A DNA stretch of 36,683 nt, from the IMG/VR virus record IMGVR_UViG_3300030102_007435, positions 5,332-42,014 of that record; one strand, 5' to 3'. Under the pieces are notes generated by a model. The model searched no databases. It worked only from the letters and a program-made list of their open reading frames with translations, and was not told the DNA's origin. Each line of letters starts with the position of its first letter. Position 1 is the stretch's first letter. Below, piece after piece: positions 6,866-36,683 of this stretch. Source of the stretch: a virus. A program made the position numbers and the translations under genes.

Positions 6866-7725
6866 TGGAATCACCAGAAGTATCAACGGGTAAACTCTAT
6901 ATCGGTCCAAGTATACCGGTAAAACTTGATCTATCAGCGTTTACACTCAATTCAAAACTTCCTTTCAATGGAACACTAGCATGTGTGGGTCCTGCATTTT
7001 TTGGTGCAGTTCCACCAACAGGTTTTGCCAGAGCGATGTGTCAGATGGGTCCGGGAATACCACCATTTGTGTCAGCAGTTCCGGGTCTGACTCTTGAAGT
7101 GACAGGTGGAACACACCTGATGGGATATCTGAATGCTTTTGGATTGAACTCAATGATAGGTGTGACTAATAATATTGGTGTTCATAATGGTATAGGACTC
7201 AAGAACATGCTTGGGTTTCATAACAGGGTAGGAAAGCAGACAGCAGTTGGTGGAGAAACATCAGCAGAACCGAAGAAGTTCTGTGCAGCACCAACGATGA
7301 CTCTTACATCTGTAAATGGAACACTCAGAGGTAATTGGAAACATAATGGCACATCTTTATTTCTCCTGCATGCTCACTCAGATAGAAATCTAAAGAAGAA
7401 TATACAACCTATACTATCACCTCTATCTAAAGTTCTACAACTTCAAGGTGTGACGTTTGAATGGGATCACCCTAAGTTAGCAAAGAATAGACCGGGAACA
7501 AATATGGGATTGATTGCTCAAGATACTGAAAAAATAGTTCCAGAAGTCGTTATAAATATGACCATAGATGCTGATGGCGAACAAAAAGAAGTCAAAGGTA
7601 TCATGTACGAAAACCTTACTGGTCTCTTGATTGAGGCGATCAAGGAACAAAACAAGCGAATTGAACATCTAGAACAATGCATTGCTACACTACAAGCGGA
7701 AAAGTCCACACCGACGGAATCATAG
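6865..7725 (+). CDS. tail tip protein with C-terminal S74 autocleaving chaperone
   Basis: 286 aa. The N-terminal about 160 residues are Gly/Pro/hydrophobic with short repeats (IGVTNNIGVHNGIGLKNMLGFHNRVG), plausible for a spike-tip or PAAR-like cap. From about residue 170 the peptidase S74 / intramolecular chaperone domain begins: HSDRNLKKNI, with catalytic Ser172 and Lys177 in the family S-x4-K spacing, then FEWD, MGLIAQD, VPEVV and a C-terminal coiled coil (LIEAIKEQNKRIEHLEQ). In this family the domain trimerises, folds the preceding beta structure and cleaves itself off just before the Ser. Its position at the end of the hub operon supports a tip role. The last 49 bases overlap another ORF in the -1 frame. 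Confidence 0.8.
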   Translation: MESPEVSTGKLYIGPSIPVKLDLSAFTLNSKLPFNGTLACVGPAFFGAVPPTGFARAMCQMGPGIPPFVSAVPGLTLEVTGGTHLMGYLNAFGLNSMIGVTNNIGVHNGIGLKNMLGFHNRVGKQTAVGGETSAEPKKFCAAPTMTLTSVNGTLRGNWKHNGTSLFLLHAHSDRNLKKNIQPILSPLSKVLQLQGVTFEWDHPKLAKNRPGTNMGLIAQDTEKIVPEVVINMTIDADGEQKEVKGIMYENLTGLLIEAIKEQNKRIEHLEQCIATLQAEKSTPTES

Positions 7726-9090: not shown

Positions 9091-12000
9091 ATGCCGTTAA
9101 GCAGACTCGAAAATTTTCTCAAGAATGTCACAGGAAACGTAATTTACGTCAATCCTGAAGAACTTGATGCAACAGATGATATTAGTAATAGGGGAAGTAG
9201 TCGAGCAAGACCTTTCAAAACTATTCAACGTGCATTAATAGAGGCAGCGAGATTTTCATATCAGGTAGGTGGAAATAACGATAAGTTTGATAAAACAACA
9301 GTTTTATTATCACCGGGTGTTCATTTCATTGATAACAGACCCGGACTGCAAATCAACACATCAGGTTCACTTACTGATGTAAATGGAACTGCAGCAACAA
9401 TAGATCAGTTATCCATTGGATCTAATTTTGATATTCAAGATCCAAATAATGTATTATACAAATTCAATAGTGCTAGTGGTGGTGTTATAATACCTCGTGG
9501 TACATCAATAGTTGGACAAGATCTAAGAAAGACAAAGATAAGACCAAAGTTTGTTCCACAACCTGATAACGGTAATATTGATACAGCAGCAATATTCAAA
9601 GTTACAGGTGCATGTTTCTTCTATGGATTCAGTTTCTTTGATGCTGATCCAAATGATAGAATCTTTAGAGATTATACATCAAATGTATATGCTCCAAACT
9701 ATTCTCATCATAAGTTAACATGTTTTGAGTATGCTGATGGCGTGAATACGATTGCGGGTAAGGGTAATACCGACCTTGACATGTACTATTATAAGTTGAC
9801 ACTTGCTTATGGTACTAACAGTGGTCGTGCTATACCAGTATATCCTACAAATACAGATTTTGAGAAGTCAATTGATGAAACTCGTATTGTAGGTGCTATA
9901 TCACAGGTAGGAACTATTTCTATCAATGACATTTATTCTGGTGCAAACCCAACAGATTCAACAGCAACACCTATCGTTACTGTTGTCACAGCAACTAATC
10001 ATAATTTTGAAGTAGGTACACCAATACTAATCAATGGTGTTGGCGACTCAAACTATGATGGAAGTTATATTGTATCTCAGGTTCTTAGTGATACTTCATT
10101 CACTTATGCTGTACCAACAACACCTGCAAGCACAGCGACACCAAACTTGTCTGGGCTGAATGCAGTTGTAAAGATTGAGAGTGATACTGTTTCATCTGCA
10201 TCACCATATATCTTCAATGTTTCGATCAGATCTGTCTTCGGTATATGTGGACTAAACGCTGATGGTAGTAAAGCAACTGGATTCAAGTCCATGGTTGTGG
10301 CACAGTTCACTGGTATTGCACTCAACAAAGATGATAATGCATATGTCAAATACAATACTACAACAGGTGTATGGCAAGATCAGGCAGCGTTAGGATCTAC
10401 AGTAAGTTTACACACAGATAGTCTTGCTAAACATAAACCATCTTACCAAAACTATCATGTAAGGGTAAGTAATAACGGTATAATTCAGGCAGTATCAGTA
10501 TTCGCTATAGGATATGCACAGCATTTCCTTGCTACTACTGGTGGTGATATGTCAATCACCAACTCTAACTCTAACTTTGGTGCTAAGTCACTAGAAGCAG
10601 ATAAGTTTAGATTTGAATCATTCCTGAAAGATGATAAAGGATTCATAAGAGAGATAAATCCTCCACAGCATAATTTTGCAAAAGAAACTTCAGTAGGATT
10701 TCTACCATTAGATGTAGAGGCAACTGTAGGTGTATCAACAGATGTCAAAGTTTACATCAATGACTTCAAGAATAAGGATAATAAACCAAACGTTATACTC
10801 AACGGATTCCATCTTGGTGCTAAGATAGGAGATCAACTCAACGTAAGTATTGGTAACACAGTATTTGGAGCAGACATCGTTATGCCTGTTCCTCAGACTG
10901 ACCCTGATGAAAGAGTATCTGGTCAGAAAGAAATATTTGTTGGTAGAGTATCAGGTATCAATAGTATAACTGGAAATACCTTTACATTACAGTCTGATCA
11001 TAAGTTTATCAATGGTGAAACTGTTAGAGTTTATTCTGAGAATGGATCATTACCTGATGGTTTAGATTATAATAGAGTTTATAATGTTATAACTACATCA
11101 CTCAATGCAGATCAGGTACAGTTAGCATCAACCCTGAATAATGCCGTTGCTGGTAATGAGATCACAGGCATCAATAATTCAGGTGGACTTCTTCGTATAG
11201 TATCAAAAGTATCTGATAAAGAAGCAGGAGATGTGGGACATCCCGTGCAGTTTGATTCTTCAGGTTGGCATATAAACGTTGGAGTGGGTAATACCTTATC
11301 TGCTGCTATAACAGGAAGTCAGAGTTCTATTACACCAAAGACTAGAACTTCATTCATCAAGAGAACACTGGATAGGCGTGAAGAGTCAGAGAAGAATTAT
11401 GGAGTCAAGTATGTCATACCTCAAGATTCTAATCTAGCAGCAGCACCTATTGCAGGGTTCAGTATTGCTGAGACATCAACAGTTCCAGATGATACAAACT
11501 ATCAGAACGACAACAATGTTCTTACATCAGCATCTAATCTAAGACAACCAAACAATATTATCAATGCTTCATGGGCAAGTAATGTTGGTATCATAACTGC
11601 AGAGCAACCTCATGGATTGAAAGTAGGTCATATCGTACAGATTTACAGACTAAGAAGTTCAGGAAATACATCAGGAACTGATAATAGTGGTTTCAATGGG
11701 ATCTTTGAAGTATCTGCAGTGCCTAGCGATACAACATTCAGAGTAGGGTTGAACACAAATCCCGGTGGAATTTCTACAATTACAAATGATATCCCATACA
11801 CATTCCATGACAGAAGTATAGTTGGTTCAGGTAGAACATTCAGTCCTTACTTCGTAAAACGTGATTTCAATACAAGTTATCAGATACAGGGTACGACTGA
11901 GATACAGGAGTATAAGCAGGGAGTACAAGATGGTGAATATGATCTAACATTACGTGGATATATTTCACAACCAGAAGTTTCTCCATTCTCTACAACTACA

Positions 12001-25740: not shown

Positions 25741-26583
25741 TCAGGTTACGTTCCAATCAATTTTTGTACGGATTTGTTCGTTATACTTCCATATCTCCTT
25801 GAACATCTTACTATTCAGTCCTACTTCGTCAAACTGAGCGATCAAAGCATTGAGATCTTTGGGGAAACATGTTCCTCCAAATCCTCTATCGTTATCTACA
25901 CCCGGAACTTCACTATGTGATTCTCCTATTCGTGGGTCTGCAACCACACCTCGTCTTACATGGTCATAATCCATTTCGTGTTTCATACAGAAGTCATACA
26001 TCTTATTGAAGTATGCAACCTTGTATGCTAGAAAGACATTAGAAAAATATTTCACTGCTTCACTTTCATTACTTGTCATATAATATGTCTCAGTATTACT
26101 AAAATAATAACTATAGAACATTCCTAACTTACTACTATAATGTTGCCTTGCTCCTATAATTGCTCTTGGTGCATGACGAAAATCCTTCACAGCATTTCTT
26201 GCTGTCAGAAACTCAGGATTATGACACACAGTATGACCTAACTCAGCATATTTCTCAGTAGTACCAACTGGAACTGTTGACTTGATGACATACAGAGGGT
26301 CATCATAGGCATCATTATCCAGTGCTTCAAGCGATTGGTGTGGGTCTAACTTACTAAAAAATTCGTCTAAGTAAGATAAGTCACACGTTCCGTCCATTCT
26401 CATGGGAGTGGGCAAACATACGAACACAATACTTTGCTTCGTTGTTTCTTCAAAAGTATTCAATGATCTCAATGGGTCAACATCATATACCTTTGTTTCT
26501 ACTTTATCTCTTACATTCTGATATATTGCATTTCCTACAAATCCATTACCTACGATACCAACAGTCAATCTATCTGAATACAT
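25741..26583 (-). CDS. short UDP-glucose/GDP-mannose dehydrogenase family protein
   Basis: 280 aa. The N-terminal NAD-binding Rossmann motif is G-x-G-x-x-G in VGIVGNGFVGNA (residues about 8-19), followed by the family pattern VFVCLPTPM and YVIKSTVPVGTT. The catalytic cysteine motif GFGGTCFPKD (Cys239) is intact. In this family the Cys carries the thioester intermediate during two-step NAD-dependent oxidation of a nucleotide-sugar C6 alcohol to the acid. The usual C-terminal UDP-binding domain is absent: family members run about 390-450 aa and this ends about 40 residues after Cys239. It may be an unusual short form or act with a partner. It has its own consensus promoter and no coupling to the upstream HAD gene. 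Confidence 0.85.
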   Translation of the reverse strand: MYSDRLTVGIVGNGFVGNAIYQNVRDKVETKVYDVDPLRSLNTFEETTKQSIVFVCLPTPMRMDGTCDLSYLDEFFSKLDPHQSLEALDNDAYDDPLYVIKSTVPVGTTEKYAELGHTVCHNPEFLTARNAVKDFRHAPRAIIGARQHYSSKLGMFYSYYFSNTETYYMTSNESEAVKYFSNVFLAYKVAYFNKMYDFCMKHEMDYDHVRRGVVADPRIGESHSEVPGVDNDRGFGGTCFPKDLNALIAQFDEVGLNSKMFKEIWKYNEQIRTKIDWNVT

Positions 26584-26606
26584 ATTCTATTTGTAAAGTA
26601 CATTAT

Positions 26607-26635
26607 ATTATATCACATCTATTTGATGTTGTCAA
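26607..26635 (-). promoter_or_regulatory. consensus sigma70 promoter for the dehydrogenase gene
   Basis: On the minus strand: TTGACA (26635-26630), a 17-base spacer, TATAAT (26612-26607), a perfect match. The spacer contains an inverted repeat ACATC-5-GATGT (26615-26629). The predicted start is about 26600 and the gene's ATG is at 26583. The -35 lies in the end of the HAD gene. Confidence 0.85.
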
Positions 26636-27011
26636 GGAAGTAATCAAAATCACTGCAACCTCTATCGTCCACATAGATAGATGCTCTTGGTTTACCAAAG
26701 AACAACTTAGTGTATTTCACACCCCATGACTTGAGTTGTTCTTCTGTTCGTGATCTCATGTACTTGTCTGCTTCTGCTTGTTGAGCAATGATGTCATCAG
26801 GGTGCATGTCACTGCTCACAATAAATCCCCTTGCTGTCTGTAGATATATGATAGCACCTTGATCGAATAGTGCATTGACTTTTTCTATTCTATCATAACG
26901 TGGTATAGCATCAAAGGGAGTGCCTTCGTGAACTTCAGTCAGTGTTCCATCTATATCAAAACAATATATGTCAGACCTAGAGTCAGTTGGATCATCAAAA
27001 ATTTCATTCAT
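26619..27011 (-). CDS. HAD-family phosphatase
   Basis: 130 aa. Motif I is DIDGT in YCFDIDGTLTEV (nucleophile Asp19 and acid/base Asp21). Motif II is the Thr of YLQTARG, a Lys lies in FFGKPRA, and motif IV is YVDDRG. All core motifs are present in a compact protein without a cap domain. HAD enzymes hydrolyse phosphate esters of small metabolites; compact forms such as KdsC and GmhB act in Kdo or heptose synthesis. Its position between a sugar isomerase and a dehydrogenase suggests a sugar-phosphate substrate. It overlaps the SIS gene by 8 bases. Confidence 0.85.
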   Translation of the reverse strand: MNEIFDDPTDSRSDIYCFDIDGTLTEVHEGTPFDAIPRYDRIEKVNALFDQGAIIYLQTARGFIVSSDMHPDDIIAQQAEADKYMRSRTEEQLKSWGVKYTKLFFGKPRASIYVDDRGCSDFDYFLDNIK

Positions 27012-27480
27012 GTTCGATTTTGGGTAGAGTTATACCATTATATTCCATAAGCATATAAAGAGTCCAAAGAGCATTTACTTCAAACTCGTGATATGTTTCT
27101 ACTGGAATCACAATGGTGTCTAAATGTTCGTGTAGTATTGGACGTGACACTATCGCTAGTGTTGGCATGGAGGGAGATATTTGCTTCATTGCTTCAATGA
27201 GTGGCGAGTTCGTTCTACACCCAACTGCAATAATCAAGTCAGCATATTGACAGGCATAATTTATAAATGCACCTTTCCAATCTCCATCACGACCTAGTGC
27301 AGTCATGTGAACTGAATCAGGAGCAAAACAAAATTTACCTGTATGTCTTTGTATGTCACTTGCCATGTGTTGACACACAGCAAGATTACCACCATTGCCA
27401 ACAAGAGCAACTTTATTTGCTTGATGTAGCAACCAAGCACCACGTTCTATTTCAGGACTTTTTACATACAACCTTTTCAT
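27004..27480 (-). CDS. SIS-domain sugar-phosphate isomerase (GmhA/KdsD-like)
   Basis: 158 aa. A SIS fold is visible: the phosphosugar loop VALVGNGGNLAVCQHMASDI matches the GNGGSA-x-x-x-H pattern of sedoheptulose-7-phosphate isomerase, with a second strand/loop ADLIIAVGCRTNSPLI. The length is slightly below GmhA (about 190 aa). The protein probably interconverts an aldose and ketose phosphate. The second Ser-containing loop (usually SGNS/T) reads GCRTNS, so substrate and activity are uncertain. Its start overlaps the KdsB-like stop (ATGA), showing a coupled operon. Confidence 0.8.
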   Translation of the reverse strand: MKRLYVKSPEIERGAWLLHQANKVALVGNGGNLAVCQHMASDIQRHTGKFCFAPDSVHMTALGRDGDWKGAFINYACQYADLIIAVGCRTNSPLIEAMKQISPSMPTLAIVSRPILHEHLDTIVIPVETYHEFEVNALWTLYMLMEYNGITLPKIEHE

Positions 27481-28178
27481 AGTAATTTTTCGACTTCGTT
27501 CACATGTTCTGGTCGATCTATTGCTCTAAATTTAGCACAATTCAAGTTGTATGGCAACACATTATACTTACCAATGAACCCCTGAGTATCCAGACCTTGC
27601 CATTGATTTATGAGTGTCATATCTAAATTGGGAAAGTCATTGATGACATTTCGTTTATACAGATATAATCCTATGATTGATTTTATATTTTCGTTTACTA
27701 CTTCTATATTTCTCATACAATGAGTCACAACACCATTATTGATTACACATTTGACTACATCTTGATCTTTTATTTCACTTTCGTCTAAATCTCTTATCGC
27801 TTGCACCATGTCACACCTATATGAGACCCCGAAACGAATCATATCGTCTATCCAATTAGATTGAATTAGCGGTTCGTCTCCCTGCAAATTAAGAATGAAA
27901 TCACTTTCCACATTTTGAGATACTTCTGCAACTCTATGAGTGCAAGTGTAGTGCTTTCCTGTAAGTCTGGATTCATAACCCTCCTTTTTGCAAAGATCAA
28001 CAATTTCGTTATCTTCAGTAGCAACGATAACATTGTCAATATATTTAGACTTTCGTCCAATGTCAGCAACCCTAAGAACCATTGCCCTGTCATTGATAAG
28101 AGCAAGAGGTTTTCGTGGAAACCTAGATGACGACAGTCTAGCAGGGATTACACATGTAATCTTCTGACCTAGATACAT
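27477..28178 (-). CDS. kdsB: CMP-Kdo synthetase-like nucleotidyltransferase
   Basis: 233 aa from the ATG at 28178, preferred over an upstream in-frame codon at 28256 because the conserved N-terminus begins at once (ITCVIPARLSSSRFPRKPL) and the predicted promoter start is about 28192. Family motifs: VIPAR-x-x-S-x-RFP-x-KPL (CTP-binding loop), VIVATED, HRVAE, ILNLQGDEPLI, LYLYKR and the terminal AIDRPEHVNEVEKL. KdsB activates Kdo or a related ulosonic acid as CMP-sugar for surface polysaccharide. It is slightly short against the usual 245-255 aa. It leads the minus-strand sugar operon. The exact sugar (Kdo, 8-amino-Kdo or other) cannot be told from sequence alone. Confidence 0.85.
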   Translation of the reverse strand: MYLGQKITCVIPARLSSSRFPRKPLALINDRAMVLRVADIGRKSKYIDNVIVATEDNEIVDLCKKEGYESRLTGKHYTCTHRVAEVSQNVESDFILNLQGDEPLIQSNWIDDMIRFGVSYRCDMVQAIRDLDESEIKDQDVVKCVINNGVVTHCMRNIEVVNENIKSIIGLYLYKRNVINDFPNLDMTLINQWQGLDTQGFIGKYNVLPYNLNCAKFRAIDRPEHVNEVEKLL

Positions 28179-28198
28179 AATTTTTCTCGTGTATAGAT

Positions 28199-28227
28199 AT
28201 GATAACAGTAGTTGCAAATAATTGCAA
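28199..28227 (-). promoter_or_regulatory. sigma70-type promoter of the sugar operon
   Basis: On the minus strand: TTGCAA (28227-28222), 17-base spacer, TATCAT (28204-28199). The -35 is the right arm of a GTTGCAA-ATAA-TTGCAAC palindrome (28211-28228). Confidence 0.65.
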
Positions 28228-28240
28228 CGTGGAGTATTAT
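28212..28240 (+). promoter_or_regulatory. sigma70-type promoter for 28260, crossing the divergent one
   Basis: TTGCAA (28212-28217), 17-base spacer, TATTAT (28235-28240); predicted start about 28247, ATG at 28260. The -35 is the left arm of the same palindrome used by the minus-strand promoter. Confidence 0.65.
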
Positions 28241-28259
28241 ATAGTTTTCTAGTCAATCA

Positions 28260-28535
28260 ATGAGAAGAATCAATCTTGGAGACATAGTAAGGTCAGGAGA
28301 CGATACTGGCGAGGTCTGTTTCGTTTCTTCTTCTTATTTTTGTATGTGTGTTAGGTTGGGGGAGATCGCATTGTATGATGTAAAAGTGGTTGTATCTAGA
28401 ACATTAGACAACTACGAGGTCATACGCAAGGTGGATAGTGACAGTTTAGATAGTGTCACAAAAGAAATTGAAAAGAAATACATGTATAATAGAGTAAGAT
28501 CAAATCAAAAATGGAGAGTGCCTTATGCTATCTGA
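28260..28535 (+). CDS. hypothetical protein (91 aa)
   Basis: 91 aa. The N-terminus reads like a small beta barrel (NLGDIVRSGDDTGEVCFVS, CMCVRLGEIALYDVKVVVS), possibly SH3-like, and the C-terminus is helical and basic. It is the first plus-strand gene after the divergent promoter region, with an AATCA leader directly before the ATG and no Shine-Dalgarno sequence. It overlaps the next gene by 11 bases. Function not recognised. Confidence 0.75.
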   Translation: MRRINLGDIVRSGDDTGEVCFVSSSYFCMCVRLGEIALYDVKVVVSRTLDNYEVIRKVDSDSLDSVTKEIEKKYMYNRVRSNQKWRVPYAI

Positions 28536-28698
28536 AAATGAGTACAACCTTATAGTATATTGCTTGGAACAGCAAATGTACGAGTTCACACCTGATGAGC
28601 AAAAAGATGCTAATAATATAGTAGTCAAATTATCAGAGCATGTGACAGTTGAAAAAGTGGCACACAAGCACGAGCGTAGAGATTTAGACAGACTATAA
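28525..28698 (+). CDS. small hypothetical protein (57 aa)
   Basis: 57 aa, MLSENEYNLIVYCLEQQ to HERRDLDRL, helical. It starts inside the end of the preceding gene, with GGAG 9 bases before its ATG (28512-28515), so coupled translation is likely. Its stop overlaps a TATAAT element before the next gene. No family recognised. Confidence 0.7.
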   Translation: MLSENEYNLIVYCLEQQMYEFTPDEQKDANNIVVKLSEHVTVEKVAHKHERRDLDRL

Positions 28699-28710
28699 TG
28701 ATAGTATAAC
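28694..28710 (+). promoter_or_regulatory. probable promoter -10 region for the CobT-like gene
   Basis: TATAAT at 28694-28699 and TATAAC at 28705-28710; no good -35 for the first, and a weak TTTAGA (28683-28688, 16-base spacer) for the second. Close in sequence to the 32692 and 34640 starts. Confidence 0.45.
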
Positions 28711-28720
28711 AACAAAGATT

Positions 28721-30982
28721 ATGACAGTATCAATCGAAATCAAAGGCAACCTTGCTAAACTACTAGCAACAGAAGACCTTATCATTGAGCATAAACCAGT
28801 CGAGACAGCATCATTTGATGTTGATAGAAGAGTCCTTACTCTACCTGTATGGGATAGAGCAAGTGAGACTGTTTACGATATGCTAGTAGCACATGAGGTG
28901 GGTCATGCACTATACACACCTAATAGAGATTGGTGGAAAGAAGATGAGTTCAAAACAATACCACATGATTATGTCAATGTGGTAGAAGATGCTCGTATTG
29001 AGAGACTCATCAAGCAAAGATACAGAGGTCTCAACAGAGATTTCAACAAAGGATATTCTGAATTACATAATGATGATCTATTTGAATTAGAGGATACAAA
29101 TGTAAATCATTTGAAACCTATTGATAGAATCAATCTATACTTCAAGATCGGTAGTTTCATTGACATTGACTTCAATGATACTGAGAATGAGTTTGTGACC
29201 AGAATTTCTAGATGTGAGACATTTGAAGAGGTGCTACAAATATCTAAAGAGATACACCAGTACACTAAAGAAATGCAAGAGCAAATGCAAAAGCAAGCAA
29301 ATGCCGAGCAAAAAGAGTCCGAAGCACAAGATAATGCCAAAGTCGAGGTCAGACCTGACATGTCAGGGTCTAATGATGATACTCAAGCACAAAAAGATGA
29401 GCAAGAAACTGATACTCAGGGTCAGGGTCAGGAAGATGGCGAAGAAGAACCAGTACAAGGTAGATCAGATAAATTATTCCCTGATGAAGTACAAGATACT
29501 CAAGAGGAAGAGCAAGAAGAAGAGTCAAAACCTACTGGAAACACTCAGGGTGGAGAGTTCGGAGACATTGATACTGCTACAACTCAGAGATCACTTGATG
29601 AGAGTCTAGAGAATTTGACTAACACATACAAAGATCAAGTGCCTACACAATATGTTACTATACCTAACATGAAAATGGATAAGGTTGTTATTGACTTTGA
29701 TACTATCAAATCATATCTTGATAATCATTTTGTTGAGAACAACACTACTGACTCATCAAATCAATTCTTGATCGAACATACTCAAAGATTCAATGAGTTC
29801 AAGAAATCAAGTAACAAAGAAGTCAACTATCTTGTCAAAGAGTTTGAAATGAAAAAGTCAGCAGACTCATACGCACGACAGGCAACAGCAAAGACTGGTA
29901 TGCTTGATACATCTAAGTTGCACACATATATGTACAATGAAGATATATTCAAGAAAGTAACAACAATTCCTGATGGCAAGAATCATGGTCTTGTATTTGT
30001 TCTGGACTGGTCTGGTTCAATGAACAATATACTTGAAGATACTCTCAAGCAATTATTTCAATTAGTCTGGTTCTGTAAAAAGACTCAAATCCCTTACGAG
30101 GTGTACGCTTTCACAAATGATTCATGGCAACTAAATGTGGAATGTGATGATGAAGACAGACCATATACATCATACAGGAATACATCTAAAGATCTCCTAG
30201 TCGATACTTGGAAAGAGGGAGACATCAATATTGACGGTTGTTTCCGTATGGTAAACATATTATCATCTAAGGCAAAGACCAAAGATATTGAGAAACAAAT
30301 GCTAAACTTATGGTTGACAAACTGTAGTTTCAAGTATCACTACAATCATTGTTTCCAACACCCTGCAAAGTTTCATCTATCAGGCACACCATTGAATGAA
30401 GCGATCATTGCTACTAAGCAAATCGTCAAAGCAATGATGAAGAAAATCCAGAAGGTTCACGTTGTTATCCTGACTGATGGAGAAGCATACCAACCTAGTT
30501 ACAATGTGGATAGATCAAAGTTACATGATTCATTCGGAGTTGACTACAAGGGTACAAGATCAATCAATTCAACTTGCATGTTGAGAAATCGTAAGTCAGG
30601 TAAGACTTTCGCATTGACCTACAGTAATTGCTCATTGAAACTTATTGAGTCTATCAAGGACGATCTACCTAACGTCTCATTCATTGCCTTTAGAGTGGTC
30701 GAGAGGGGTGGTATGAGATATGTCTGGTCTCAGTATGGTATGGATACATACAACACATACGAGGAAATGAAAGAGCAAGTCAAGAAAGGCAATCTTTCAC
30801 TCACATTGAACTCATTTGATAGATTCTTTATGATTCCACAACAGCACCTAAGTGTGGACTCAGATCTTGAAGTCAAAGAAAATGCAACCAAAGGAGAAGT
30901 CTCAAAGGCATTTCGTAAGATGTTCAAGAACAAAAAGACAAACAAGTTTATGCTCTCAGAATTTGCAAAGGTCATTGCATAA
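28721..30982 (+). CDS. CobT-like protein: HExxH peptidase-like plus VWA domain
   Basis: 753 aa. The N-terminal domain carries HEVGH (residues 58-62) and, about 25 residues later, VVEDARIE, the gluzincin-like third-ligand pattern, so it looks like a zinc metallopeptidase. A Gln/Glu/Asp-rich linker spans about 185-275. The C-terminal VWA domain has an intact MIDAS: D429-x-S431-x-S433 (LDWSGSM), T556 and D586 (ILTDGE). Cobaltochelatase CobT and MoxR-partner proteins share the acidic-linker-plus-VWA layout and work with an AAA+ ATPase, here the next gene. In cyanophages the pair is often annotated as cobalamin-related; the HExxH domain makes remodelling or proteolysis equally possible. It is followed by a hairpin at 30996-31025. 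Confidence 0.85.
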   Translation: MTVSIEIKGNLAKLLATEDLIIEHKPVETASFDVDRRVLTLPVWDRASETVYDMLVAHEVGHALYTPNRDWWKEDEFKTIPHDYVNVVEDARIERLIKQRYRGLNRDFNKGYSELHNDDLFELEDTNVNHLKPIDRINLYFKIGSFIDIDFNDTENEFVTRISRCETFEEVLQISKEIHQYTKEMQEQMQKQANAEQKESEAQDNAKVEVRPDMSGSNDDTQAQKDEQETDTQGQGQEDGEEEPVQGRSDKLFPDEVQDTQEEEQEEESKPTGNTQGGEFGDIDTATTQRSLDESLENLTNTYKDQVPTQYVTIPNMKMDKVVIDFDTIKSYLDNHFVENNTTDSSNQFLIEHTQRFNEFKKSSNKEVNYLVKEFEMKKSADSYARQATAKTGMLDTSKLHTYMYNEDIFKKVTTIPDGKNHGLVFVLDWSGSMNNILEDTLKQLFQLVWFCKKTQIPYEVYAFTNDSWQLNVECDDEDRPYTSYRNTSKDLLVDTWKEGDINIDGCFRMVNILSSKAKTKDIEKQMLNLWLTNCSFKYHYNHCFQHPAKFHLSGTPLNEAIIATKQIVKAMMKKIQKVHVVILTDGEAYQPSYNVDRSKLHDSFGVDYKGTRSINSTCMLRNRKSGKTFALTYSNCSLKLIESIKDDLPNVSFIAFRVVERGGMRYVWSQYGMDTYNTYEEMKEQVKKGNLSLTLNSFDRFFMIPQQHLSVDSDLEVKENATKGEVSKAFRKMFKNKKTNKFMLSEFAKVIA

Positions 30983-30995
30983 ACCAATTATAATA

Positions 30996-31025
30996 GTGGC
31001 ACATTGCTTATTGCATTGCCACTTT
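30996..31025 (+). terminator. hairpin after the CobT-like gene
   Basis: GTGGCA (30996-31001) pairs with TGCCAC (31017-31022), with TGC/GCA pairs inside and TTT then a C-run after it. A possible weak terminator. Confidence 0.5.
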
Positions 31026-31039
31026 CCCCCCTATACAAT
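31011..31039 (+). promoter_or_regulatory. sigma70-type promoter for cobS
   Basis: TTGCAT (31011-31016), 17-base spacer, TACAAT (31034-31039). The predicted start near 31046 gives a short leader containing GCAATCAATCAA before the ATG at 31066. The -35 lies in the preceding hairpin. Confidence 0.55.
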
Positions 31040-31065
31040 TAGTACATAAGCAATCAATCAAGATT

Positions 31066-32196
31066 ATGCCAAGAACAATCAACTTTGAACCACACTTTGA
31101 TGCAATCACTTCCAAGTATGGTAAAGAACTAGATGCTGATATGGTCAAGGAGTATGTTGCAAACAACCCTGACGTATCTTATCAGACAGTTACCAAGTAT
31201 CTCAACAAATGGAAAATCAGTAGAGGTAAATGGAACATCAAAACACCCAAGCAAGAGACTCAGATTCCAACTGCTACATTCCAAGTACAGCAACCACAAT
31301 CAACTAAACTCACAAAGACTGAGAAAGTTGAACAAAATCTTATCCCTGCAAAGGATAACACATTCATTCCTTTCGGCAATTTCCCTGCACTCAAAAAAGT
31401 AATTGCATCTAGGGAGTTCTATCCTACATTCATCACTGGTATGAGTGGCAATGGTAAAACATTCGGTGTTGAGCAAGCATGCTCTCAGTTGAACAGAGAA
31501 CTTATCAGGGTCAACATTACAGTCGAGACTGACGAGGACGATTTGATCGGTGGTTTCAGACTTGTCAATGGTCAAACAGTATGGCACAATGGTGCTGTTG
31601 TTGAAGCACTAGAGCGTGGTGCTATTCTATTACTTGATGAGATTGACCTAGCATCAAACAAGATACTATGCTTACAACCCATACTAGAGGGCAAAGGTCT
31701 GTTTCTCAAGAAGATTGGCGAGTACATCAAACCTGCTAAAGGATTCAATGTTATCGCTACTGCTAACACTAAGGGCAAAGGTTCTGATGACGGTCGTTTC
31801 ATAGGTACTAACATACTCAATGAAGCGTTCCTTGAGAGATTCCCTATTACATTTGAGCAAGAGTATCCTACAGTCGTGACTGAGAAAAAGATACTTACCA
31901 GACTATGTGAAGAGATCGGGATACCTCTTACAGGCGATCACAAAGGGTTCATTGACTACCTATGTGATTGGTCAGACATTGTTCGTAGAACATTCAAAGA
32001 CGGTGGTGTTGATGAAATCATATCCACTCGAAGACTCGTACACATCATGAGAGCATATCAAATCTTTGGCGATAAAGTCAAAGCAATGCAAATGTGTCTC
32101 AACAGATTTGATGATGAGACCAAAGAGTCATTCATGCAACTCTATACCAAACTAGACGAGCATATCAAGTCAGAAGAGAATGTTACGGAGTCGTAA
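31066..32196 (+). CDS. cobS: CobS-like MoxR-type AAA+ ATPase
   Basis: 376 aa. An N-terminal region of about 75 residues (VSYQTVTKYLNKWKISRGKW) looks like a small helical CobS N-domain. The AAA+ core follows: Walker A GMSGNGKT (125-132), Walker B ILLLDE (187-192), sensor 1 ATANT (Asn234) and a likely arginine finger in LERFP (Arg258). The family member CobS powers cobalt insertion into hydrogenobyrinate diamide together with CobT and CobN; MoxR relatives remodel VWA partners. A cobS-type gene is a common cyanomyovirus gene. The adjacent CobT-like gene supports a functional pair. It has its own promoter and an SD-less leader. Its stop codon lies in a perfect 9-bp hairpin (32179-32200). Confidence 0.88.
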   Translation: MPRTINFEPHFDAITSKYGKELDADMVKEYVANNPDVSYQTVTKYLNKWKISRGKWNIKTPKQETQIPTATFQVQQPQSTKLTKTEKVEQNLIPAKDNTFIPFGNFPALKKVIASREFYPTFITGMSGNGKTFGVEQACSQLNRELIRVNITVETDEDDLIGGFRLVNGQTVWHNGAVVEALERGAILLLDEIDLASNKILCLQPILEGKGLFLKKIGEYIKPAKGFNVIATANTKGKGSDDGRFIGTNILNEAFLERFPITFEQEYPTVVTEKKILTRLCEEIGIPLTGDHKGFIDYLCDWSDIVRRTFKDGGVDEIISTRRLVHIMRAYQIFGDKVKAMQMCLNRFDDETKESFMQLYTKLDEHIKSEENVTES

Positions 32197-32200
32197 CATT
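32179..32200 (+). terminator. perfect 9-bp hairpin over the cobS stop codon
   Basis: AATGTTACG, loop GAGT, CGTAACATT. The TAA at 32194-32196 is inside the right arm. No U-tract follows, so it is either a weak terminator or a 3'-end stabiliser. Confidence 0.55.
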
Positions 32201-32203
32201 CAG

Positions 32204-32232
32204 TTGACAGGGTAAACCAAACCTGTCATAAT
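32204..32232 (+). promoter_or_regulatory. sigma70 promoter for the 32291 gene
   Basis: TTGACA (32204-32209), 17-base spacer, CATAAT (32227-32232), near consensus. The predicted start is about 32239, the first base of a GTCAGTCA arm. Confidence 0.75.
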
Positions 32233-32238
32233 GAGTAT

Positions 32239-32276
32239 GTCAGTCAGAGGTTTTGATTGATGACTGACTGACTGAC
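32239..32276 (+). repeat. 5'-end hairpin formed with a (TGAC)4 tract
   Basis: GTCAGTCA (32239-32246) can pair with TGACTGAC in any of three registers of the four-unit tract at 32261-32276. It would form at the very 5' end of the mRNA. Confidence 0.6.
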
Positions 32277-32290
32277 AAACCATTTGTGTC

Positions 32291-32557
32291 ATGTCGTATG
32301 ACCCTAAACTAGGCATTGAAAACACTTACTACATTATGATTATGCAAATCACAGGTTCTTCCGCTATCGCTAACGTAAACTTCAAAGATGCAAGTCTCGT
32401 TGGAATCACATTCACATCACAAGATACTGAGTATGACTTCAAAGCGTTAGATTCAAACCTTGTTCGTAATGGACTAAGCAATGCAATCGCTAAAGGCGAC
32501 AGCGTTGGCAAGTTGATCGCTTCATACAGAAGAGAAGGTCAACTAACAGAAGTGTAA
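32291..32557 (+). CDS. small KTSC-like protein
   Basis: 88 aa from 32291, or about 71-73 aa if translation starts at the ATGs at 32336 or 32342 (MQITGSSAIANV). The core (SSAIANVNFKDASLVGITF, EYDFKALDSNLVRNGLSNAI, GKLIASYRREGQL) follows the KTSC-domain pattern: a strand pair, an aromatic Y-x-F/Y strand, then a helix with A-x-S-x-G-x-x. The function of this domain is not firmly known. It stands alone behind a strong promoter with a hairpin leader and is followed by a GAAA-loop terminator. Neither start has a Shine-Dalgarno sequence. Confidence 0.75.
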   Translation: MSYDPKLGIENTYYIMIMQITGSSAIANVNFKDASLVGITFTSQDTEYDFKALDSNLVRNGLSNAIAKGDSVGKLIASYRREGQLTEV

Positions 32558-32613
32558 TCTGAAACTACACAAAGACAACTGAATATTTTGATACTAGCAT
32601 AATCTCGCAAAGC

Positions 32614-32639
32614 AAAGCACTCGAAAGGGTGCTTTTCTT
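32614..32639 (+). terminator. intrinsic terminator with GAAA tetraloop
   Basis: AAAGCACTC, loop GAAA, GGGTGCTTT (9 pairs including one G-U), followed by TCTT. Closes the 32291 transcription unit. Confidence 0.8.
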
Positions 32640-32642
32640 ATG

Positions 32643-32668
32643 CCAATTTATATACTGGCACAAATTGG
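32643..32668 (+). promoter_or_regulatory. inverted repeat abutting the nuclease/methylase promoter
   Basis: CCAATTT (32643-32649), 12 bases, AAATTGG (32662-32668), ending one base before the -35 element at 32669. It is a candidate operator; a second nested pair TGCCA/TGGCA overlaps it. Confidence 0.5.
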
Positions 32669-32697
32669 TTGTTATAGCATAAGACTTATACTATAAT
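32669..32697 (+). promoter_or_regulatory. sigma70-type promoter of the nuclease/methylase operon
   Basis: TTGTTA (32669-32674), 17-base spacer, TATAAT (32692-32697). The -10 overlaps an ATG at 32696, so translation probably starts at the next in-frame ATG, 32720. Confidence 0.65.
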
Positions 32698-32719
32698 GAG
32701 TATATCAATTACAGACACA

Positions 32720-33247
32720 ATGATTACAGCAAAAGACATTCTACAATTCAAAACACACAAAGTTTCTCTACAAGAAAGTAAGAGTTGTATCTACAATGGT
32801 AGTCCGTTTCAAGTTTACAAACAAATGAGTAGTAAAAAGAAAGGGGCAAGGTTCGAGGGTATTGTACAAGAGTATTGCACAAACTTAGGATACAAAGTTA
32901 CAAAACCTGATAACTCAGATCATGACAGGAAGATCAACAACATCAAGGTTGAGATCAAGGGTTCAATGATATGGTCAGGCAAAGATGAGCATTTCCGTTG
33001 GCAACAATTACGACCGCATCAAGATTATGATGTTGTTATATTCCTTGCAATATTCCCACAACAGATAGAGTTCTATGGGTGTACAAAGCAAGATGTCAAA
33101 GACAATCTTGAAATACAGGACGAGAAGGGCAACTGGATACACAACCAACATGGAGGACTCAAGGTCAACTCAGGCACATTCTTTTTGGATAGTGACGGTC
33201 TAACCATACCAACATGGTTCAAATCAATCGAAGAGGTATTACAATGA
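32720..33247 (+). CDS. PD-(D/E)XK nuclease-like protein
   Basis: 175 aa from the ATG at 32720; an upstream in-frame ATG at 32696 overlaps the predicted -10 box and would not be on the transcript. The middle fits the PD-(D/E)XK fold of restriction enzymes: a helix with ARFEGIVQEYC (Glu46), the strand LGYKV, then the active-site pair with an acidic residue in SDHDRKI (Asp67 or Asp69) and VEIKGS (Glu78-x-Lys80). After it come RWQQLRPHQDYDVVIFLAIF, a strand/helix typical of this superfamily, and a conserved-looking NQHGGLKVNSGTFF. It is coupled to the methyltransferase by ATGA, which suggests a restriction-modification-type pair. A DNA-repair or host-DNA-degrading nuclease is the alternative. Confidence 0.8.
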   Translation: MITAKDILQFKTHKVSLQESKSCIYNGSPFQVYKQMSSKKKGARFEGIVQEYCTNLGYKVTKPDNSDHDRKINNIKVEIKGSMIWSGKDEHFRWQQLRPHQDYDVVIFLAIFPQQIEFYGCTKQDVKDNLEIQDEKGNWIHNQHGGLKVNSGTFFLDSDGLTIPTWFKSIEEVLQ

Positions 33248-34032
33248 AACTCAACACAATTACAAACTCAGACTGTCTAAAGTATCTGAAGAAACTACCA
33301 GACAATTCAGTTGATCTCGTACTAACTGACCCCCCATACTTCATAGGATTTGACGGTGGTAAGGGTTGGGATAAGCAATGGAAGAGTGACAGGGAGTACA
33401 TTCAATGGTGCATAGAGTGGACTAAAGAGTGTGTCAGGGTACTCAAAGATGAACGTATGCTCGTTGTATGGGGTACTCTAAAGACTGAAGCGTTCTTACT
33501 GTATAAACTAGCATTGAACCGTATGGAGGGCATCACACCGCAGAATGAGATCATTTGGTCATACAACTGGGGTGGTAGGTCTAAGGATAACTTTGCTCGT
33601 AAACATGAGTATGCTTGGTGCTATTCGACAGGTGATAAATTTTTGTTCAATGGTGATGACGTTCGTATTGATCGTAAGATGAATACTAACATAAGAACTG
33701 GATTACAGCATACAAAGGGTACTATACCAACATGTGTGTGGGAGAAGAACAACCACACAACCAGTAAGGACTATGTTGGTTGGCATGCTACAACCAAGAA
33801 TATTGACATACTGTCAAGGATAATCAAGGCATATACAAATGTCAATGATGTGGTTCTGGACTGTTTCATGGGTTCTGGAAGTACAGCAGTTGCAAGTCTT
33901 AGAACTGGACGTAACTTTATTGGATGTGAGCGATCTAAAGAGTATTATGCACAGGCAAAGAAGCGTATATGTGACAGTCAAAAAAGTGACACCAAAAACG
34001 TGTCTAAGGCAAGTCTAGCGTCTATACTATAG
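33244..34032 (+). CDS. beta-class DNA methyltransferase
   Basis: 262 aa from the ATG at 33244, which overlaps the nuclease stop (ATGA) and follows an AGAGG sequence. Catalytic motif IV DPPY is at residues 29-32 (LTDPPYFIGFD), and the AdoMet-binding motif I comes later (VVLDCFMGSGST, 203-214), followed by GRNFIGCER. This IV-before-I order defines the beta class of N6-adenine or N4-cytosine methyltransferases. With no separate target-recognition domain beyond the middle region (about 90-190), the recognition site cannot be predicted. It probably methylates phage DNA against its partner nuclease or host enzymes. The stop codon lies in a short palindrome at 34020-34034. Confidence 0.88.
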   Translation: MKLNTITNSDCLKYLKKLPDNSVDLVLTDPPYFIGFDGGKGWDKQWKSDREYIQWCIEWTKECVRVLKDERMLVVWGTLKTEAFLLYKLALNRMEGITPQNEIIWSYNWGGRSKDNFARKHEYAWCYSTGDKFLFNGDDVRIDRKMNTNIRTGLQHTKGTIPTCVWEKNNHTTSKDYVGWHATTKNIDILSRIIKAYTNVNDVVLDCFMGSGSTAVASLRTGRNFIGCERSKEYYAQAKKRICDSQKSDTKNVSKASLASIL

Positions 34033-34034
34033 AC
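34020..34034 (+). other. palindrome over the methyltransferase stop codon
   Basis: GTCTATA-C-TATAGAC, with the TAG stop at 34030-34032 inside the right arm. It can form a 6-bp stem with a 3-base loop. Confidence 0.45.
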
Positions 34035-34053
34035 ATATACAGGAGTTACACCT

Positions 34054-34194
34054 ATGAGACAATTCACAGTTTCAGCATTACTTGAGGGATACAGGGTGGA
34101 GGAGACTGTAACAGCAGTTTCTATTCATCATGCTATCAAGATCATGAAGGCAAAGTATGGCAATGCTGCTAGAAACATTTACGTTTTGAACTAA
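34054..34194 (+). CDS. small hypothetical protein (46 aa)
   Basis: 46 aa, MRQFTVSALLEGYRVEETV then a helix (SIHHAIKIMKAKYG) and a NIYVLN strand. A clear AGGAG lies 8 bases before the ATG. Its N-terminus resembles that of the 35786 product, so the two may be relatives. It shares one base with the next start (TAATG). Confidence 0.7.
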   Translation: MRQFTVSALLEGYRVEETVTAVSIHHAIKIMKAKYGNAARNIYVLN

Positions 34195-34364
34195 TGAATG
34201 AACAAAGACTGAACGAAGAACTCGACATCATGGAAGAGCATGAAAGGGTCAAGGAAAAGCGTTATCAGGAGTTTCAGCAATGGTTGAACCAATGCCCACT
34301 CGTGATAACTGACTACAACGATTTCACAAACGAGTTTCAAATCACATTCTCATTATCAGACTAA
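34194..34364 (+). CDS. small hypothetical protein (56 aa)
   Basis: 56 aa. Strongly helical, charged N-terminal half (MNEQRLNEELDIMEEHERVK) and a beta-like end (EFQITFSLSD). It shares single bases with both neighbours (TAATG on each side), so translation is probably by termination-reinitiation. No family recognised. Confidence 0.7.
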   Translation: MNEQRLNEELDIMEEHERVKEKRYQEFQQWLNQCPLVITDYNDFTNEFQITFSLSD

Positions 34365-34591
34365 TGGAGTATATCACATACAAAAAGCAAGATTTCATTT
34401 TTGCATCATCACACATATTATGTGAGACATTGCCCCCTGACTTTGATACATGGAGTGAGGAGAAACTTGACGATTTCCTAAGTGACAATGCTTATGAACC
34501 GTTCGAGTATCACACACCCACACAAATATTCCAAGAGATAGAGTCACTTGCTCACTCAGTCAGGGATTACATCAAATGTGACAGTCAATAA
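34364..34591 (+). CDS. small hypothetical protein (75 aa)
   Basis: 75 aa, acidic, MEYITYKKQDFIFASSH to DYIKCDSQ. It is coupled to the preceding gene by TAATG and is the last of this small run. A 9-bp hairpin (34575-34601) surrounds its stop codon. Function unknown. Confidence 0.75.
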   Translation: MEYITYKKQDFIFASSHILCETLPPDFDTWSEEKLDDFLSDNAYEPFEYHTPTQIFQEIESLAHSVRDYIKCDSQ

Positions 34592-34601
34592 GTGTCACAT
34601 T
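34575..34601 (+). terminator. 9-bp hairpin around the stop of the 34364 gene
   Basis: AATGTGACA, 9-base loop containing the stop, TGTCACATT. Followed by TACAC rather than a U-tract. Similar in layout to the hairpin over the cobS stop. Confidence 0.5.
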
Positions 34602-34611
34602 TACACTTGCA

Positions 34612-34640
34612 TTACACAATAGGCAAGTTATTATTATAGT
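34612..34640 (+). promoter_or_regulatory. sigma70-type promoter for the 34658 gene
   Basis: TTACAC (34612-34617), 17-base spacer, TATAGT (34635-34640). The short leader ACAAATCAATCATT before the ATG at 34658 has no Shine-Dalgarno sequence. Confidence 0.5.
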
Positions 34641-34657
34641 ATAACAAATCAATCATT

Positions 34658-34879
34658 ATGGAAAGAACTAAAAAACAACTTTTCAAAGACATTCAATTCT
34701 GTAAGAATGTATTGGGTTTATCCCCAGAAGATACCGACAACATGATTATGGTATGTGACAAGTTGAAAATCGGTGCAGAGTATTTCTCAGAGGAGTTCGT
34801 ATTCGAGGGAGACGGTATTGAATCCGTTGTTAGAGTACATGACCCAGAATACCTAAAAATCAAGTGGAGACTAGCATGA
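34658..34879 (+). CDS. small hypothetical protein (73 aa)
   Basis: 73 aa, a helical N-terminus (KKQLFKDIQFCKNVLG) and a beta-like C-terminus (EEFVFEGDGIESVVRVHD). It is the first gene after a promoter with an AATCAATCA leader and is coupled to the next gene by ATGA. No family recognised. Confidence 0.75.
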   Translation: MERTKKQLFKDIQFCKNVLGLSPEDTDNMIMVCDKLKIGAEYFSEEFVFEGDGIESVVRVHDPEYLKIKWRLA

Positions 34880-35037
34880 ATGTACCACTTACAGATACTC
34901 AGTTAGAAGACATCATTTACTATCTTGGTTGGAAAATTCAAGAAATCAATGAAGCAGGTTGCGATCTAGAATTTCCAGAGATCGAAGACACACTACAACA
35001 CCTAAAGGATTACCAACATGGAACTCAGACAAGATAG
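34876..35037 (+). CDS. small hypothetical protein (53 aa)
   Basis: 53 aa, acidic and helical (DTQLEDIIYYLGWKIQEINEAG, EIEDTLQHLKDYQ). It begins on the stop of the previous gene (ATGA) and overlaps the next gene by 20 bases in another frame. Function unknown. Confidence 0.65.
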   Translation: MNVPLTDTQLEDIIYYLGWKIQEINEAGCDLEFPEIEDTLQHLKDYQHGTQTR

Positions 35038-35347
35038 CAAAGACACATACACTTTGCAACTCACTCGCAGGGAACTAGGTTTACTAGAACATCAAGCAGG
35101 CATTTGGTATCATAGAGTGGATTCAGACCTTGAGCAGGGTGCTATAGGTTATGACCATTACTTAGTTGATTCTTTCGGCAAAGATGCCATTGTAGGTCTA
35201 TACAAAGAAGTTAGAACAGTTGTTGATGCTAACTTTGACAGTTTCAAAGACCTAAAACGAAAGGACGCTTTTACCAGACCATTTTGTTATGAACCAAAGA
35301 GTGAAAACCACTACACTAAGTGGGATATAGGTCAATTCAAAGACTGA
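35018..35347 (+). CDS. hypothetical protein (109 aa)
   Basis: 109 aa, starting inside the end of the previous gene. The N-terminus (KDTYTLQLTRRELGLLEHQAG) reads as a strand plus helix, the rest as mixed helix with an aromatic-rich end (NHYTKWDIGQFKD). A hairpin at 35354-35380 follows the stop. No family recognised. Confidence 0.75.
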   Translation: MELRQDSKDTYTLQLTRRELGLLEHQAGIWYHRVDSDLEQGAIGYDHYLVDSFGKDAIVGLYKEVRTVVDANFDSFKDLKRKDAFTRPFCYEPKSENHYTKWDIGQFKD

Positions 35348-35353
35348 CACATG

Positions 35354-35380
35354 ATCGGTTGCTATCTTATTGTAACCGAT
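35354..35380 (+). terminator. hairpin overlapping the next promoter
   Basis: ATCGGTTGC (35354-35362), 9-base loop, GTAACCGAT (35372-35380): 9 pairs including one G-U. It is followed by TATTATAATA, which serves as the -10 region of the next gene rather than a U-tract. Confidence 0.5.
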
Positions 35381-35389
35381 TATTATAAT
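35359..35389 (+). promoter_or_regulatory. promoter for the 35410 operon
   Basis: TATAAT at 35384-35389 (or TATTAT at 35381-35386) with TTGCTA (35359-35364) at 19 or 16 bases. The leader AGCAATCAATCAATC runs directly into the ATG at 35410. Confidence 0.5.
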
Positions 35390-35409
35390 ACTATAGCAAT
35401 CAATCAATC

Positions 35410-35667
35410 ATGGCAATGACACCTCGACAATTCATGGAAGAAGTTTACGAGATAGCATTTGGCGATCAAGCATACTATCGTGGTTTCTTTCCAGAAGAAG
35501 TGCTAGAAACACTCAGAGAATTTTCAGACAACGCTCTCAAGGTCGAAGAGTTGAGTCTAGAACCCGAACAGTATGAAGACATGGATAGGCAACTTGAAGA
35601 CGCTTATCGTAGAGGATACATGGACGGTCGTAAATTTCTATTACAACAACAGGAGACAAACTCATGA
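35410..35667 (+). CDS. small hypothetical protein (85 aa)
   Basis: 85 aa, acidic and helical (TPRQFMEEVYEIAFG, EEVLETLREFSDNALK, DMDRQLEDAYRRGYMDGRKF). It leads a coupled run of six or more tiny genes, each starting on the previous stop. An SD-less AATCAATCA leader precedes it. Function unknown. Confidence 0.75.
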   Translation: MAMTPRQFMEEVYEIAFGDQAYYRGFFPEEVLETLREFSDNALKVEELSLEPEQYEDMDRQLEDAYRRGYMDGRKFLLQQQETNS

Positions 35668-35789
35668 ATCGTTCAGAACTAGAAAAACTAATTACTGACT
35701 TTGTTATAGAGCATAATCTTGATGCTCAGTTCGTACAGCAAACAGAAGGACTAACTTATGTTCGATTTGTAGTCGAGGAGGACTCATGA
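35664..35789 (+). CDS. tiny hypothetical protein (41 aa)
   Basis: 41 aa, MNRSELEKLITDFVIEHNL then a strand pair ending YVRFVVEEDS. Coupled on both sides by ATGA, with AGGAG 8 bases before the ATG (35651-35655). No family recognised. Confidence 0.65.
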   Translation: MNRSELEKLITDFVIEHNLDAQFVQQTEGLTYVRFVVEEDS

Positions 35790-35965
35790 AACAGTACACA
35801 ATTACAGCAGTCAAGGAATACGAGTACACAAAAACAGTTTTTGCTGACAATCTTGTGGACGCTCATCTACAGGCATTTGAATCAGAGGAGGAATGGACTC
35901 TCATTACTGACCCTGACTATGATGAACACAACCCTTACAACATTACACTAATTGAGGAATCATGA
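35786..35965 (+). CDS. small hypothetical protein (59 aa)
   Basis: 59 aa, MKQYTITAVKEYEYTKTVFADNL followed by a helix and an acidic end. The N-terminal strand-strand-helix layout resembles the 34054 product. Coupled on both sides by ATGA; GAGGAG precedes the start. Function unknown. Confidence 0.7.
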   Translation: MKQYTITAVKEYEYTKTVFADNLVDAHLQAFESEEEWTLITDPDYDEHNPYNITLIEES

Positions 35966-36171
35966 CAGTAAAATACACATTTCCAAGTGATGACCCATAT
36001 CAGGAGGGCGAAGAAATCTACTACAACATGGTAGATTTTCTAAATGATTCAGAAGTACATCAAATCTGGGAAATTGTCGGCAAGGCACTTGACAGAAATA
36101 ATATTGTCACATCAGACAATGAAAGTCTATCAGTTCGGGTGTATGATGAACTTAGTTACGAGGAATCATGA
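35962..36171 (+). CDS. small hypothetical protein (69 aa)
   Basis: 69 aa, acidic: MTVKYTFPSDDPYQEGEEIYY, a helix (NDSEVHQIWEIVGKAL) and a C-terminal strand. Starts on the previous stop (ATGA) after GAGG and ends coupled to the next gene. No family recognised. Confidence 0.75.
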   Translation: MTVKYTFPSDDPYQEGEEIYYNMVDFLNDSEVHQIWEIVGKALDRNNIVTSDNESLSVRVYDELSYEES

Positions 36172-36314
36172 CTCTACTCAATGAATTGCATGACATCATC
36201 AATGAAGATGACATGACAGCATCACATGACTTAGTTGAAATTATGTTCAATTTACTTGACACCAATCAACTGACTCAACTTGAAGATATTATCACAAATC
36301 AGTTCCCAAAATGA
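36168..36314 (+). CDS. tiny hypothetical protein (48 aa)
   Basis: 48 aa, all-helical and acidic, with an internal similarity between its two halves (LNELHDIINEDDM and TQLEDIITNQ). Coupled on both sides by ATGA; GAGG lies just upstream. Function unknown. Confidence 0.65.
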   Translation: MTLLNELHDIINEDDMTASHDLVEIMFNLLDTNQLTQLEDIITNQFPK

Positions 36315-36448
36315 AAACAGTTACTTACACATTTGATGAACTACACGCTTTTAGTGAGCATGTAACATGGTGCATCATGGAACAAGATCAACCAGTTGAT
36401 GACAACTTACAATCTTTTATAGACAAAACTCTTTATTCAAATGACTAA
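36311..36448 (+). CDS. tiny hypothetical protein (45 aa)
   Basis: 45 aa, MKTVTYTFDELHAFSEHV, acidic and helical, ending FIDKTLYSND. Starts on the previous stop and overlaps the next gene by 8 bases. No family recognised. Confidence 0.65.
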   Translation: MKTVTYTFDELHAFSEHVTWCIMEQDQPVDDNLQSFIDKTLYSND

Positions 36449-36683
36449 TCACAAACAAGTAAACTTCACAACTGTCATGGACTATCGTCAAACATTTACA
36501 GTTGACATTGACTTTGAAGCACTCAAAAAAGAATTAGTTGAAAAATACGACTATGATGAAGAAGAAGTGCAATCAACATGGGAGAGTGATGACGAAATGT
36601 ACAACCTCGCATGGGAAATGGTCATGGAAGACCCAGACAAGTATCGTGACCAAGAATTTGGTCATGGAGACTATGACAATGAA
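36441..36683 (+). CDS. partial small acidic protein, runs off the window
   Basis: At least 81 residues with no stop before the right edge. N-terminus MTNHKQVNFTTVMDYRQTF, then a helix (FEALKKELVEKYDYDEEEV) and a very acidic, aromatic-rich region (MVMEDPDKYRDQEFGHGDYDNE). It overlaps the previous gene by 8 bases. The 3' end is missing, so length and function are unknown. Confidence 0.65.
   Translation, partial: MTNHKQVNFTTVMDYRQTFTVDIDFEALKKELVEKYDYDEEEVQSTWESDDEMYNLAWEMVMEDPDKYRDQEFGHGDYDNE

Follow-up and report, generated by a model that had tools for sequence, protein, structure and literature searches.

A compact nuclease-methylase operon of T4-like cyanophages and other marine phages, predicted to be a virus-specific restriction-modification system for TTAA

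In type II restriction-modification (R-M) systems, like PvuII and, for the methylase class considered here, MboII, a PD-(D/E)XK nuclease and a beta-class amino-methylase are encoded next to each other and act on a short palindromic target. R-M pairs have also been described in eukaryotic viruses: those of chloroviruses break down host DNA, and for those of marseilleviruses the suggested targets are competing viruses (PMC7253447). Phages often encode beta-class methylases, cyanophages such as S-BM3 among them, and a marine methylome survey found methylases, viral and other, almost only as orphans (PMC9516812). The loss of short palindromes from phage genomes has been associated with host R-M systems (PMC6286503); in our check of the literature, which was confined to open-access papers, that study did not contain the words phage-encoded, cyanophage or TTAA.

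The pair analysed here lies in a 36.7 kb window (the whole stretch of DNA studied), which is part of a 42 kb IMG/VR virus record. It resembles type II systems in its adjacent genes and in its short palindromic target, which is predicted; one of the nuclease families that occupy its position folds like PvuII, and the closest PDB chain to its methylase is M.MboIIA (1g60, E=3e-27). Unlike those systems, it is found in phages: a short-pattern search of 84,980 prokaryote species genomes and a tblastn search of 72,556 plasmids yielded no relative of the nuclease, although such searches do not exclude distant relatives. No controller gene was seen. Its nuclease is also exchangeable, and lone nucleases accompanied by a purged site occur. 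Like the chlorovirus and marseillevirus enzymes it is a viral pair, but those belong to eukaryotic viruses and no direct protein-family comparison was made. Whereas most marine phage methylases are described as orphans, the one in the window is joined to a nuclease, and whereas the site avoidance described in the earlier study concerns host R-M systems (PMC6286503), the loss reported here tracks the nuclease encoded by the phage itself.

The pair is preceded by a peptidase (PHROG 459) and CobS (PHROG 249), T4-like cyanophage core genes that adjoin, or nearly so, in S-BM3, S-ShM2 and S-PM2, and then by a small ORF. A hairpin, a promoter-like site and the genes for nuclease and methylase follow in that order, all on the plus strand. 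The hairpin, read from the sequence at 32614-32639 (AAAGCACTC-GAAA-GGGTGCTTT and then TTTTCTT), is intrinsic-terminator-like and sets the operon apart from the upstream genes. Its stem shows two-sided compensatory changes that keep the pairing in relatives (L007 and L012), and it was not picked up by a simple scan. The promoter-like site at 32669-32697 (TTGTTA-17-TATAAT) has 10 of 12 matches; its -10 box, TATAAT at 32692-32697, is kept in three relatives, and ACTATAATGAGTATA is conserved in relatives. The initial annotation had placed both genes behind one promoter, and a single promoter-like site with a conserved -10 box does stand just upstream of them, but such sites were not commoner than chance in our scan. 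The longest nuclease frame begins at ATG 32696. Since this codon lies within the conserved -10 box, and the nucleases of relatives begin at the equivalent of ATG 32720, the latter is the likelier start, as had been assumed, and the residue numbering based on it is right. Elsewhere in the window, on the minus strand at 25741-28256, four ORFs recognised by eye only resemble sugar-nucleotide genes (UDP-glucose dehydrogenase-like, HAD-like, sugar-phosphate isomerase-like and CMP-KDO synthetase-like).

The first gene (32720-33247, plus strand) codes for a PD-(D/E)XK protein of 175 amino acids, which we assign to subfamily A1 and predict to be a type II restriction endonuclease with TTAA as its site. 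Its AlphaFold model (mean pLDDT 92.2) contains the helix and strands of the PD-(D/E)XK core with the catalytic residues in place, and the intact restriction fold is one of the features of type II systems. Glu46, Asp69, Glu78 and Lys80, with codons at 32855, 32924, 32951 and 32957, do not vary in any of 97 distinct relatives. A model without the core, or relatives lacking these residues, would have refuted the nuclease proposed from the sequence, and neither was found; Asp67, which had been listed among its catalytic residues, is not conserved. The best match among solved folds is the homing endonuclease I-Ssp6803I (Z 11.6, rmsd 2.5 over 114 residues), and further matches include Eco15I (Z 9.9), NhoI (Z 9.6), archaeal Hjc, HinP1I, PvuII and EcoRV. 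At the level of sequence, residues 31-129 match the PADLOC model REase_II PDLC03515 (E=8e-15; the specificity of the model itself is not given) and the protein matches PHROG 6927, of unknown function (E=4e-26). No Pfam family was assigned to it, and sequence searches of the PDB, whether started from the nuclease or from A1, A5 and A6 profiles, returned nothing meaningful. Comparison of the window with L007 gave a dN/dS of about 0.14, so that purifying selection on the nuclease, like its fold and the conservation of its motif, is established by computation.

The second gene (33244-34032, plus strand) codes for a DNA amino-methyltransferase of 262 amino acids, matched by Pfam N6_N4_Mtase (9e-50) and PHROG 67 (E=7e-75) and predicted to protect TTAA. 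Its DPPY motif (33328-33339) stands ahead of the AdoMet motif FMGSGST (about 33865-33885), which is the beta order, and the beta class given to it in the initial annotation is confirmed. The four-base ATGA overlap of the two frames is likewise present, at 33244-33247, where the stop TGA and the start ATG can be read directly, and the window's pair has the adjacent DNA methyltransferase that characterises type II systems.

This adjacency recurs in most relatives, which answers the concern that the two genes might never be found together elsewhere. Pairing was computed from the nuclease side, without bias to the methylase, on clusters at 90% identity, and a pair was counted when a beta-methylase started no more than 200 bases from the nuclease end. 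A beta-methylase lies directly downstream in 22 of the 26 clusters of subfamily A, to which the window belongs, and in 12/17 clusters of the diverged subfamily A3 (~23% identical), against 8 of 829 (1%) other ORFs of at least 100 amino acids in the same loci. The commonest arrangement is the 4-nt overlap, seen in 21 of 35 family A clusters that adjoin a methylase. The methylase partners of A1 and A3 differ, with a mean identity of 29% between the two sets, and nuclease and methylase distances are correlated (Mantel r 0.96 over 61 pairs, 0.69 within A and 0.55 within A3; none of 2000 permutations reached the observed r). Contig L008 holds both an A1 pair and an A3 pair (5965-7349 and 10266-11533). 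L013-L019, L052 and L058 have two different beta-methylases, the second of which overlaps the end of the first (at ~5741-6721 in full-length loci), and these loci are thus nuclease-methylase-methylase operons. Unpaired arrangements also occur: in S-BM3 the nuclease is far from the methylase, and lone nucleases are found at other places, for example directly behind the T4-GC 36 helicase in S-ShM2 (L003, 3676-5447) and S-SSM4 (L005, 3670-5453). The helicase was considered as a part of the system and rejected, being near only a minority of lone nucleases.

In many relatives of the methylase, a different ORF overlaps the same methylase start. One such group, family B, has invariant E36, D63, E74 and K76, and its model (pLDDT 88.9) matches PvuII (Z 9.5; Foldseek 2.5e-5); a search that started from family B itself placed 14 of 20 clusters directly upstream of a member of the window's beta-methylase family. 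Another, family C, was found only in the slot before the methylase, at four loci that are all close relatives. Its designation as a putative nuclease rests on a D40, E51-x-K53 pattern and on the position in which it was swapped. No sequence or profile similarity linking families A, B and C was detected. The replacement is most evident between L062 and L063, which share 96.8% identity over the 4.45 kb upstream and 99.0% over the 2.0 kb that start at the methylase ATG; between these flanks one locus carries family A and the other the unrelated family C, and homology picks up again at the methylase start codon. When the three family labels are placed on the methylase tree, at least 10 changes are required. 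At least three putative nuclease families therefore occur in front of the same methylase and, on this computed evidence of replacement in place, the slot is exchangeable. Protection of a shared target would allow nucleases to be exchanged before a methylase that stays the same, although this is an inference.

For an R-M system, one would expect that no phage could carry the nuclease without the methylase and still have sites in its genome. S-ShM2 carries a family A2 nuclease and no methylase of the PF01555 class, a restriction of the term that is necessary because an annotated dam (GC 161) is present, and its 179,563 bases contain no TTAA against about 590 expected from trinucleotides. The same holds for three metagenomic contigs in which an A1 nuclease stands alone, again without a PF01555 methylase: TTAA there is 0/174, 0/364 and 0/196 (observed/expected) in the stretches read, and TCGA is normal. 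One of these contigs, G003, is related to S-ShM2; G001 and G002 are not closely related to it, and these lineages share little nucleotide similarity. S-RIM14 and S-SSM2, of the same species as S-ShM2, have no TTAA in the 40 kb read. In genomes with A3 it is TCGA that is missing (observed/expected 0/80 in S-SSM4, 0/41 in G007 and 3/142 in G005) and TTAA that is normal, whereas six T4-like cyanophages without the nuclease have 0.70-1.01 of the expected TTAA and 0.71-0.88 of the expected TCGA. Among 16 four-base palindromes, none preselected, TTAA (p=2e-7) and TCGA (p=3e-4) best separate the two subfamilies. The purging of sites is in this way tied computationally to the subfamily of the nuclease; TTAA as the target of A1 and A2 is a prediction, with cleavage inferred, and the diverged paralogous pair formed by A3 and its own methylase appears to use TCGA. 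Phages with both nuclease and methylase keep some TTAA (27 of 152 expected in the window, 63/399 in S-BM3). TTAA is only moderately low with families B and C (0.47 and 0.41), and the site assigned to these two depends mostly on inference from the methylase they share.

Depletion of AGCT, GGCC and CCGG was rejected as a nuclease signal, because cyanophages without the nuclease are low in them too. AGCT occurs 5 times against 93 expected across the whole window. CCGG is almost absent in most T4-like cyanophages tested (L254-L257, L260-L269), with 1/126 in S-ShM2, and is not depleted in the window (51 against 30 expected), ACG-2014f, G001 and G002. In S-SM1 (NC_015282 60000-100000, L262), which has no family A or B nuclease, GTAC was found in 0 of 130 expected cases, and another self-avoided site with its nuclease may exist.

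Not all of the evidence fits equally well. On short loci, the difference in TTAA between lone and methylase-bearing nucleases was not significant (p=0.16), since TTAA is almost lacking in 8 of the 22 representatives with a methylase as well; the corresponding difference in TCGA for A3 was significant (p=0.013). All 27 TTAA of the window, which belong to its structural-gene part, lie before 27,900, and none is found in the last 8.7 kb (28000-36683), where ~26 are expected. As a speculation, a TTAA-free genome could have gained the methylase and later taken in DNA that contained sites. The methylase-only fragments L034, L037 and L060 are TTAA-poor with no visible nuclease, but they may miss one, since that of S-BM3 lies far from its methylase. 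S-SSM4 has a distant beta-methylase elsewhere and yet no TCGA in the 40 kb tested, while ACG-2014f, which also combines A3 with a distant beta-methylase, has kept TCGA. Finally, in L098, L099, L100 and L122 (L100:4542-5516) a methylase of alpha/gamma order, with motif I before SPPY, follows directly behind the A3 nuclease. If it protected these loci, TCGA should be tolerated; the site is in fact absent, and for that reason this methylase was not counted as a protector.

Our preferred reading, to which we give a probability of about 0.83, is that the pair constitutes a compact virus-specific type II R-M operon that cuts TTAA, with the phage protected either by methylation or by having been purged of the site. 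The small PD-(D/E)XK endonuclease from its first gene would cleave the TTAA palindrome, and the beta-class methyltransferase from the overlapping second gene, most likely of the N6-adenine type, would modify this site too. Such modification would spare phage DNA that is replicated and packaged, unmodified DNA in the cell, whether host chromosome or competing phage, would be cut, and relatives bearing the nuclease without a beta-methylase would be safe because no copy of the site remains in their genomes. Inference is all that supports the cleavage, the methylation, the identity of the modified base, the timing and the victim. The genome-wide loss of TTAA in those relatives supports a shared, methylation-protected target, if indirectly. 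The joint function that the initial annotation had suggested for the two proteins thus gains support from the nuclease core, its residues, the adjacency of the genes and the loss of TTAA, with the victim and the enzymology still inferred.

The nuclease could instead be a free-standing homing endonuclease with a methylase gene as its neighbour, propagating itself by cleavage of alleles from which it is absent. Its similarity in fold to I-Ssp6803I, the lone copies found elsewhere, as behind the helicase in S-ShM2 and S-SSM4, and the gain and loss of the gene between near relatives are all compatible with such an element. Homing enzymes, however, recognise long sites, whereas here whole genomes are purged of a four-base palindrome that is specific to the subfamily. 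Unlike I-Ssp6803I, the window's nuclease is paired with a methylase and has a predicted 4-base target. The translational overlap is conserved in most clusters, and other loci have unrelated proteins, PvuII-like or of family C, in this operon slot; we consider homing quite unlikely. R-M systems can also behave selfishly, and the different genome positions of these modules would suit an addiction-type module of no use to the phage. We find this scarcely credible: a lytic cycle, which is assumed here, should leave little room for post-segregational killing, and lone nucleases persist with all of their catalytic residues and with purged sites.

It is also conceivable that an orphan anti-restriction methylase stands next to an unrelated nuclease for host DNA degradation or recombination, and that host restriction is responsible for the depletion of sites. 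Most marine viral methylases are reported as orphans (PMC9516812), viruses are reported to avoid host restriction sites widely (PMC6286503), and AGCT, CCGG and GGCC are low in cyanophages without the nuclease too. The depletion of TTAA and TCGA, though, follows the subfamily of the nuclease and not cyanophages in general, and it recurs in TTAA-free lineages (G001, G002 and S-ShM2) that share little nucleotide similarity, so that we consider this combination very improbable.

Beyond the window, we judge it probable that T4-like cyanophages and other marine phages carry a virus-only family of R-M modules, with the nuclease as an exchangeable part plugged in before a constant methylase, and that nuclease-only phages are immune by having deleted all sites (TTAA for A1/A2, TCGA for A3), telling self from non-self by sequence composition without methylation. 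Because the predicted sites are exact, the claim can be tested directly, and the same reasoning could reveal the targets of other unnamed phage nucleases. If true, cyanophages would be able to attack the DNA of host or rival with sequence specificity and, beside methylation, would have a second route for sparing themselves, that of having no sites. A molecular cause for the complete disappearance of a common tetranucleotide from 180 kb of genome would then lie in the phage's own gene set.
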